Assembly (NCBI RefSeq): GCF_038003525.1
Contig: NZ_JBBOPI010000001.1
Coordinates: forward strand, 1,975,001-2,039,000
Direction of reading: 5' to 3'
Length of the DNA: 64,000 nucleotides
Source of the DNA: Solibacillus sp. FSL H8-0538
GTDB taxonomy: Bacteria > Bacillota > Bacilli > Bacillales_A > Planococcaceae
Notes under the pieces: model-generated
What the model was told of the DNA's origin: nothing
The model's database searches: none
Seen by the model: only the letters and a program-made list of their open reading frames with translations
In this document: positions 18,005 through 20,389 of the stretch, piece after piece
Position numbering within the stretch: position 1 is the stretch's first letter
Layout of the letters: each line of letters begins with the position of its first letter
Position numbers and translations under genes: made by a program

Positions 18005-18277
18005 TCTCAACCATCCCTTTTCGAATTTATATTCCTCATCAACTGCTGAAGATTCGAGTGTAACATCTTTAACAAAACCGTTTAGAAAATTCCACATCTT
18101 CTATCATACTCAGAGAGCGTAGTAGAAAAGATTACTCTCATTATAATAGTTATTATATACTCATTTATTTTATCCTACGATCATTTGACTAGTAGGAACT
18201 CTGTGATTGCTTTCATTAACTCACAAATATTTAGTATAATGGAAGAAAAGGAACTTACTTGAAGGAAGGTCGATGGA

Positions 18278-18829
18278 TTGACAATCGCTCTTTATTTAAT
18301 TAGCTGTTACCTCATTGGCACGATTATGGCTGCGTATTTCGTTGGTAAATGGTACGGCACGAATTTGCGAGAAGCGAATAGTGGCAATCTCGGCGCTCGA
18401 AATGCCGGTCGAACGCTAGGCAAGGCTGCCTTTTTTATGACGATGATTTTAGATGCTTTAAAAGGCGCCTCTTCGGTATTATTGGGATTTGCATTGGAGA
18501 TTTCTCCATTAATAATCGCACTTGGAATCTTTTTTAGTATCCTCGGTCATTTGTATCCATTTTGGCTGAAATTTAAAGGTGGTAAAGGAATTGCGACAAT
18601 GGCTGGCGGTTTTTTATTTTTCAATCCGCTTTTAATAGCCGCCATGGTTGTAGGCATGCTTCTATCGCTGCCTATTACAAAAAGCCTGACACTTAGTATG
18701 ATTGGTGGTTTTATTACGTATAGTATTGCAATTATGTACGTGGATGCCAATAGCTATTGGCCGCTTCTCTTCGCCCTCATCTTGATTACATGGGAGCATC
18801 GAGATAACCTAAAAGAAAGGGTGAAATAA
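18278..18829 (+). CDS. PlsY-like acyltransferase paralogue
   Basis: The protein has 183 residues from TTG 18278, preceded by GAAGGAAGG. About five membrane helices carry PlsY motifs: SGNLGARNAGR near residue 36, FKGGKGIATMAGG near 96 and HRDNLKER at the C-terminus. PlsY moves acyl groups from acyl-phosphate to glycerol-3-phosphate. The third motif lacks the usual following G-x-E, and the sequence is clearly divergent, so it is probably a paralogue with another acceptor and not the housekeeping PlsY. The stop codon abuts the ATG of the GNAT-aminotransferase fusion, so the two genes form a tight operon. Confidence 0.8.
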   Translation: MTIALYLISCYLIGTIMAAYFVGKWYGTNLREANSGNLGARNAGRTLGKAAFFMTMILDALKGASSVLLGFALEISPLIIALGIFFSILGHLYPFWLKFKGGKGIATMAGGFLFFNPLLIAAMVVGMLLSLPITKSLTLSMIGGFITYSIAIMYVDANSYWPLLFALILITWEHRDNLKERVK

Positions 18830-20389
18830 ATGTATTGGTGCAAAATCGCACAAACAGAACACGAATTCGAGGCAATTGCGGCATTAAATTACGAAACATT
18901 TGTGGAGGAAATCCCGCAGCATACACCTACCGAAACAAGGCGATTAGTCGATAAATTTCACAGTGACAATACATACATCGTCGTTTATAAAGACCTAGAG
19001 CTTGTCGGAATGCTGGCAGTTCGTATTCAGCGGCCATTTTCGTTAGATGGTAAAATCGGAGAGGTCGAGCAGTACTTAAACGAAGAAGATTGTCTAAAGC
19101 TATGCGAAATTCGGTTACTTTCGGTGAAAAAACAGTACCGCAATGGTCGTGTATTCCTACAGCTTGCGAATGCATTGTATCGCTATGTTTTTGATGCGGG
19201 CTATAGCGCGGCAGTCATATCTGGAACAACACGAGAGGAAAAACTGTATACACAGCTTGGATTTGAAGCATTTGCACCAGCAGTTGGAGCCGAAGAGGCA
19301 CTATTTTTACCTATGGTGCTACGACGTGCAGACGGGCTTATTTTAGGGGAACGACTACAGCGCAAGGATATTTCATTTTGTCCTGGTCCTGTCGCACAAA
19401 AAAATGAACTGACCTATACAGCACTTTCTCATCGTTCGTCTCTTTTCAAATCATTATATGACGAGATGCTCAGTAAGCTATCTGAACTGAGTGGAGCCCG
19501 TTATGTGACGCCTGTTGTCGGAACTGGTACGCTCGCAAATGATCTAATGCTTGGACAAATAAAGGCTCAATTTGGCGAGCAACGTGGACTCCTACTCAGT
19601 AATGGGGAATTCGGTAACCGGCTTGTTCGTCAAGCACAAAATTGGCAGCTGTCGTTTGACGTATATGATGTGCCATTTAGTGAGCCGTATAGCCTAGAAG
19701 AACTTGAAACGTATTTATCTTCAAGTAATTATGCTTGGCTTTGTGTTGTTCACGGAGAGACATCACTAGGAATTTGCAATAATTTAGAGGCCATTACTAC
19801 AGTTGCACAGCGGTATCATGTAGCAGTATGTGCAGACTGTATTAGTTCTTTTGGAACATTCCCCTTTACGATGGACGGATTATTTATGGCGACAGCGGTG
19901 AGTGGAAAGGCGCTTGGTGCACTGGGCGGTCTGGCATTTATTTTCACCAACACAATACCAGTTGACAGTGAGGCACCTCTTTATAGTAATCTTGCTAATT
20001 ATTTTAAAAACCAAGTTCCATTCACGATGCCTGCTAGTTTTGTAGCATCTACTGTAGATGCACTAAAAAAGTATCCAGAGCGCTATGTGCTGTTACAGAA
20101 GCGGCTTAAAATGCTACTAAATGAGCCGCAACTTGATAGTTACCGCATCAAAACACATCATTATCCAATTGTTGTCACATACCAATTTCCCGAAGCGCTT
20201 GCTTATTTCGGCCGTGATGCGCGGTTAAATGGCTTTATGTTGCACGATGAAAGTGGGTATTTAAAGCAACATGCACTCACACAAATTTCAATGATACAGC
20301 CGCATTTCGAACAAGATTTGCAGCGTCTACTTGCCTTTTTATCTAACTATGAGACAACAATAATCCCATCTGAAAAACGAGGCATTTAG
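18830..20389 (+). CDS. GNAT acyltransferase-class V aminotransferase fusion
   Basis: This 519-residue protein has two domains. Residues 1-170 look like a GNAT-type acyltransferase of the FeeM/AHL-synthase kind: ALNYETFVEEIPQH, LVGMLAVRIQRPF, CEIRLLSVKKQYRNGRVFLQ and EKLYTQLGFEAF. Residues 185-500 are a fold-type I, class V PLP aminotransferase related to alanine-glyoxylate/AEP transaminases: TPVVGTGTLANDLM, VVHGETSLGI, CADCISSFG (PLP-binding Asp) and the lysine in AVSGKALGALGG. It starts with no gap after the PlsY-like gene (AGAAAGGGTG supplies the site). The combination suggests transamination plus N-acylation of an amino compound, with the PlsY paralogue adding or using another acyl group. 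No substrate can be named. Confidence 0.75.
   Translation: MYWCKIAQTEHEFEAIAALNYETFVEEIPQHTPTETRRLVDKFHSDNTYIVVYKDLELVGMLAVRIQRPFSLDGKIGEVEQYLNEEDCLKLCEIRLLSVKKQYRNGRVFLQLANALYRYVFDAGYSAAVISGTTREEKLYTQLGFEAFAPAVGAEEALFLPMVLRRADGLILGERLQRKDISFCPGPVAQKNELTYTALSHRSSLFKSLYDEMLSKLSELSGARYVTPVVGTGTLANDLMLGQIKAQFGEQRGLLLSNGEFGNRLVRQAQNWQLSFDVYDVPFSEPYSLEELETYLSSSNYAWLCVVHGETSLGICNNLEAITTVAQRYHVAVCADCISSFGTFPFTMDGLFMATAVSGKALGALGGLAFIFTNTIPVDSEAPLYSNLANYFKNQVPFTMPASFVASTVDALKKYPERYVLLQKRLKMLLNEPQLDSYRIKTHHYPIVVTYQFPEALAYFGRDARLNGFMLHDESGYLKQHALTQISMIQPHFEQDLQRLLAFLSNYETTIIPSEKRGI

Follow-up and report, generated by a model that had tools for sequence, protein, structure and literature searches.

A PlsY paralog and a GNAT–aminotransferase fusion protein form a conserved gene pair in Bacillota that may take part in lipid acylation

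We found that a divergent paralog of the acyltransferase PlsY (PlsY2) and a protein joining a GNAT domain to a class V PLP-dependent aminotransferase domain (the fusion protein) are encoded by a conserved gene pair, which we read as an old two-gene module of Bacillota for lipid acylation. All parts of the module belong to known superfamilies. A sequence-only reading of this DNA knew of no described pathway with this gene set, and we found no published description of it in 5.39 million open-access papers. Judging from sequence, and with a probability of roughly 0.35, the module makes a doubly acylated (N,O-diacyl) amino compound or aminolipid, with the PlsY step first. This apparently unstudied pair, present in hundreds of Gram-positive bacteria, may make a nitrogen-containing lipid; the pairing is solid and the product is a guess. 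Whatever is made, our results delimit a subfamily of PlsY whose acceptor site is rebuilt and a conserved fusion protein, named in one plasmid record only as "aminotransferase class V-fold PLP-dependent enzyme".

Layout of the locus

The window is the whole stretch of DNA analyzed, 64,000 nucleotides from Solibacillus sp. FSL H8-0538. Both open reading frames have the coordinates and strand originally reported for them (Table 1). The TTG start of plsY2 lies 8 nt 3' of a Shine-Dalgarno-like AAGGAAGG, and its stop codon (18827–18829) abuts the ATG at 18830 of the fusion gene (18830–20389, + strand, 519 aa), so the earlier observation that there is no intergenic base is correct. The shared terminator was likewise found: a single terminator-like hairpin, with its 5' arm inside the fusion gene, follows the second gene. 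The description "fused in an operon" applies to these genes insofar as they are adjacent, but the actual fusion is between the GNAT and aminotransferase domains inside the second protein. NUDIX and AAA genes on the opposite strand flank the unit and are not part of it. The host genome has one further PlsY, canonical and separate from plsY2.

Table 1. Features of the plsY2–fusion locus (positions in the window)
Feature	Position	Strand	Basis
Shine-Dalgarno-like AAGGAAGG upstream of plsY2 TTG	18262..18269	+	sequence reading
plsY2 (PlsY paralog "PlsY2", 183 aa, TTG start)	18278..18829	+	PF02660, 5xj5, residue table, clade
GNAT domain of fusion, residues about 1–172, FeeM/OlsB/LuxI type	18830..19351	+	PF21926, PF13444, AF2, Foldseek, conservation
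Class V PLP aminotransferase domain, residues about 181–519, AEP-transaminase-like	19370..20386	+	profiles, AF2, conservation
Terminator-like hairpin, 14 pairs, T-run, overlaps fusion-gene stop codon	20371..20405	+	

Distribution and linkage of the gene pair

In tblastn and HMM searches, 22 of 61 relatives and 163 of 261 genomes of the same family carried the complete fusion, which was also present in other families of Bacilli. In a phylum-wide draw of 348 genomes it occurred once besides the window's own, in a genome of another Bacillota class where plsY is immediately followed by the fusion gene. A collection-wide GTDB scan gave fusion matches in 512 stretches, from which 80 named loci were retained. 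PlsY is directly upstream of the fusion in 45 of these 80, amid several unrelated sets of other neighbors, and in almost every linked locus measured the two genes are −14 to +9 bases apart. This adjacency, the unrelated flanks and the tight spacing indicate that the two genes are kept together as one operon, and conservation across so many unrelated neighborhoods rules out chance. The pair is therefore not unlinked in most genomes, an outcome that would have spoken against the original proposal, and the unlinked genomes examined keep the paralog elsewhere.

The GNAT domain of the fusion protein

Residues 16–167 of the fusion protein match the Pfam families FeeM (PF21926, 2.4e-9) and Acetyltransf_5 (PF13444, 1.4e-7) with scores of 37.6 and 32.5 bits, above the respective cut-offs of 27 and 22.4 bits; among 49 members, the two families match 48 and 49. 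The AF2 model of residues 1–174 has a pLDDT of 91.8, and the highest query-normalized TM-scores among its best 50 Foldseek matches are to LasI (0.78), BjaI (0.74), TofI (0.73) and FeeM (0.72). The family matches and these TM-scores favor the FeeM/LuxI type, proposed from sequence alone, over an ordinary acetyltransferase. When PDB fold matches are ordered by E-value, acetyltransferases and AHL synthases are mixed, and the lowest E-values belong to acetyltransferases. Residues D41, R68, E93, R95 and R104 are invariant in 153 fusion members, and conservation within the protein is highest in the GNAT domain (mean column identity 62%, vs 51% overall). This domain has in common with FeeM and the LuxI AHL synthases the GNAT subfold, the E/R core motif and the above-cut-off FeeM match, but is about 14% identical to FeeM and LasI in fold alignments and differs from them in being joined to a PLP domain.

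One-sided dependence of the fusion on PlsY2

The expected co-occurrence of the two genes holds in one direction: each of the 22 relatives with the fusion also has a PlsY of the PlsY2 clade, whether next to the fusion or elsewhere. Seven of them have no plsY adjacent to the fusion, and all seven have a copy with the same signature elsewhere. Among the 163 fusion-positive family genomes, the PlsY2 motif was matched directly in 145. Because our first motif pattern overlooked variants (GARNTG, GARNVG and copies with T for N), pattern-negative genomes were re-examined by protein search, and nearly all of the remaining 18 proved to hold variant-motif PlsY2 copies. No PlsY2 copy was seen by protein search in G117 (81% complete), and the operon PlsY copy in G264 has T41. 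The converse fails, since 35 family genomes have the PlsY2 signature without the fusion (Fisher p 3e-19, kinship ignored), which excludes strict two-way co-dependence.

Several loci appear to record loss of the fusion. In two genomes of the Lysinibacillus group (G076 and G093; loci L237 and L238), the fusion is reduced to a C-terminal remnant behind plsY2, which is intact in G076 and shortened in G093. In another genus plsY2 lies beside a bacilliredoxin gene, and among related genomes the fusion is either between them or cleanly absent (L253–L256 compared with L240, L242, L244, L246 and L247 for presence or absence of the fusion between plsY2 and the BrxC gene); a PAP2 phosphatase gene is divergent upstream at these loci (bacilliredoxin and PAP2 named by Pfam). 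In a PlsY tree, linked and unlinked copies form one clade (support 0.89; one long-branch outsider), inside which the operon copy from the other class is the first branch. This topology and the fusion remnants suggest that the operon is probably ancestral, with the fusion lost repeatedly and PlsY2 retained. On this basis the fusion probably depends on PlsY2 or on what PlsY2 makes, whereas PlsY2 does not need the fusion; because PlsY2 without the fusion is common, including cases of decayed or excised fusions, the fusion protein probably acts on the product of PlsY2. Neither this dependence, nor the rebuilt PlsY acceptor pocket, nor the aminotransferase's loss of its substrate arginine was mentioned in the sequence-only reading.

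In the clade where the genes are unlinked (L086–L121, about 30 genomes), the fusion gene is followed by convergent genes for a helix-turn-helix/repeat regulator and MFS transporters. These flanks, as judged by eye, together with the FeeM/LuxI type of the GNAT domain and the absence of linkage throughout a large clade, would suit a different reading in which the fusion protein makes a soluble N-acyl amino compound or signal by itself. Its PLP domain would supply or interconvert the amine, its GNAT domain would acylate it from acyl-ACP, and PlsY2 would only tune the local balance of acyl-phosphate and acyl-ACP. We regard this as possible but rather doubtful, as a copy from the PlsY2 clade is still present in those unlinked genomes that were examined, and the regulator and transporter flanks are confined to the one clade.

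The acceptor site of PlsY2

The plsY2 product matches PF02660 at 1.3e-38 and the solved PlsY structure 5xj5 at 9.9e-16; its TIGR00023 score of 126 bits falls short of that model's equivalog cut-off of 137 bits. In Aquifex PlsY, residues S35, R45, K104 and N180 clamp the phosphate of G3P, S142 and H177 bind its 2-OH, and T41 and H92 bind the acyl-phosphate; T41A and changes at R45 or N180 cost most of the activity, and removal of the S142 hydroxyl costs ~70% (PMC5700162). All eight of these residues are kept in 34 of 34 canonical PlsY sequences. PlsY2 has the motif SGNLGARNAGR, with a T41R change in Aquifex (aaPlsY) numbering. In our residue table of 103 operon copies (near-duplicates counted), position 41 is Arg in 101 and T41 is retained in two, as it also is in the operon copy from the other class. 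Position 142 is Met, Gly, Leu, Ala or Phe and Ser in none of the 103, and R45 is lost to Ser or Asn in 34 (R45S in 31). S35, K104 and H92 are kept, H177 is mostly kept, and N180 is mostly kept yet variable. The window's PlsY2, with T41R and without S142, thus does not have the full canonical G3P pocket.

Given how strongly the published mutants at T41, R45, N180 and S142 are impaired, the acceptor of PlsY2 is likely to be something other than G3P. The description of plsY2 as a divergent PlsY is confirmed by the PF02660 match, the residue changes and the separate clade, and the residue table and tree weaken the idea that it is a mere PlsY duplicate. PlsY2 shares with canonical PlsY the PF02660 family and conserved H92, K104 and S35, but differs in T41R, the loss of S142, variable R45 and N180, and its separate clade, and a canonical copy coexists with it in the genome. 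Members of the subfamily thus defined, with its rebuilt acceptor site, likely carry the annotation of a second G3P acyltransferase. That annotation would be right if PlsY2 were a G3P isoenzyme for another chain or condition, with the fusion acting on something unrelated in the same regulon. The kept S35, K104 and H92, the mostly kept H177 and N180, the persistence of PlsY2 without the fusion, and its degV neighbors (see below) are in keeping with such an isoenzyme. We nevertheless consider it unlikely in view of T41R, the loss of S142 and the frequent loss of R45 or N180, at positions where aaPlsY mutants are impaired (PMC5700162), and because it leaves the dependence of the fusion on PlsY2 unexplained.

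The aminotransferase domain of the fusion protein

The Pfam family Aminotran_5 matches residues 198–360 of the fusion at 1.9e-7, and the best NCBIfam model is PhnW/AepZ (TIGR03301, 1.5e-27, below its cut-off). The full-length AF2 model has a pLDDT of 93.3, and the closest solved relatives of the PLP domain are 2-aminoethylphosphonate (AEP) transaminases and PntC-AEPT. The domain was correctly recognized as a class V PLP domain, and its PLP machinery is intact: the HxETS, SSFG and SGK motifs are present, the PLP lysine K360, D336, E310 and T311 are found in 153 of 153 members, and H308 is nearly invariant. The substrate-binding Arg of the FRIG motif, present in three AEP transaminases (7e7g, 1m32 and 9kk8) and a paralog in the same genome, is Gln (Q485) in all 153. 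An invariant H201-R202 pair stands where AEP transaminases have W-D. The fusion therefore has the PLP lysine and HxET/SSFG motifs in common with PhnW, but the Arg-to-Gln change and the sub-cut-off score rule out an AEP transaminase proper. Fold and profile matches also suggested the architecture of Mycoplasma penetrans MetRS (9os7). The N-terminal region of that protein and PntC-AEPT do carry a further domain N-terminal to a class V AEPT/AGAT-like one, but this partner is a nucleotidyltransferase, not a GNAT domain (PMC13215547), and we rejected the match.

Loss of the Arg with K360, D336 and T311 kept fits a substrate without an alpha-carboxylate, and a phosphate-bearing substrate of this kind is plausible from the residues. 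Phosphoserine aminotransferase from plants uses a His-Arg pair to bind the phosphate of its substrate, whose carboxylate is contacted by an Arg on a strand (PMC6043687). SerC of the window's genome was not found for comparison among the loci looked at, so the phosphate point rests on the literature. An aligned His-Arg pair is also present in the AGAT domain of M. penetrans MetRS, which acts on keto acids (PMC7694997); the pair is thus not phosphate-specific, and a phosphate substrate is only a lead. Against the pathway proposed below, S142 is also absent from another PlsY subfamily, two operon copies and the one from the other class retain T41, and the His-Arg pair is not specific.

With AEP transaminases as nearest relatives and ordinary acetyltransferases among the top fold matches by E-value, the fusion might instead carry out a soluble acetyl-CoA pathway of transamination and N-acetylation, as in amino-sugar or phosphonate metabolism, with an indirect link to PlsY2. 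This seems to us unlikely, because the closest folds by query-normalized TM-score (best 50) are AHL synthases and FeeM and because the phosphonate-transaminase Arg is Gln in 153 of 153. Least probable is a PLP domain acting as a lyase, racemase or beta-replacement enzyme whose amino product the GNAT domain acylates: the usual substrate Arg is gone in every member and there are scattered weak matches to beta-eliminating lyase models, but the HxETS, SSFG and SGK motifs and the nearest relatives are those of transaminases.

A proposed pathway to an N,O-diacyl aminolipid

In the pathway that we favor, every substrate and the order of steps of which we infer, PlsY2 would first O-acylate a phosphorylated keto compound such as dihydroxyacetone phosphate (DHAP). 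The PLP domain would then aminate the keto group of the acylated product, and the GNAT domain, part of the same protein, would transfer an acyl chain from acyl-ACP to the new amine, so that the end product is an amide-bearing aminolipid acylated on both N and O. Our guess at the simplest concrete route would run from DHAP through 1-acyl-DHAP and 1-acyl-serinol phosphate to an amide analog of phosphatidic acid. That these enzymes make such an analog, as a new Gram-positive phospholipid class, is a long shot. The amino donor is a gap in the scheme, since Gln in place of Arg would weaken the binding of ordinary donors (Glu, Ala), and the persistence of PlsY2 without the fusion means that what PlsY2 mainly acylates need not be passed on to the fusion protein.

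The module resembles OlsB/OlsA, GlsB and OlsF in pairing a PF13444/LuxI-like N-acyltransferase with an O-acyltransferase; in known cases the N-acyltransferases of ornithine lipids and other aminolipids use an acyl-ACP donor (PMC11631085). It differs from OlsBA in that its O-acyltransferase is PlsY-like (PF02660, acyl-phosphate, polytopic membrane), not PlsC-like, and from OlsB in that its GNAT domain is joined to a PLP enzyme and matches the OlsB model negligibly (E 0.014). In a review of bacterial aminolipids the O-acyltransferases are related to PlsC, and the terms "Bacillus" and "gram-positive" are absent from its text (PMC11631085). Should its product be an N-acylated lipid, the module would give Bacillota a way to aminolipids that, in contrast to the OlsBA type, has a second enzyme of PlsY type and a domain of its own for forming the amine.

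Neighbors of PlsY2 and other PlsY types

Copies of plsY2 in the unlinked clade have a gene of the DegV family (PF02645) downstream. DegV genes are near 20 unlinked plsY2 copies (L202–L205, L208–L210, L220, L227, L228, L248–L251 and L258–L263), compared with 0 of 34 canonical plsY loci, for which the flanks were shorter, and 1 of 80 fusion loci; in the operon from the other class a degV gene lies ~1 kb upstream. FakB proteins are members of the DegV family. They bind fatty acids for phosphorylation by FakA (PMC12288450). The degV neighbors of unlinked PlsY2 fit the use of acyl-phosphate and suggest a channel from fatty acid kinase to PlsY2.

Many family genomes have a third PlsY type of about 205–215 aa beside canonical PlsY (L198, L200, L201, L207, L211, L212, L214–L219 and L221–L224). 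It has S41, mostly V, L, I, S or H at position 35, and I, L or V at position 45; lacking the R45 phosphate clamp, it probably uses yet another acceptor. Two loci (L225 and L226) have PlsY2-like copies bearing the changes K104E and H177A. They lie 3' of a gene that by eye looks like pdxS and are followed by a GNAT gene; these copies are probably not working acyltransferases of the known type.
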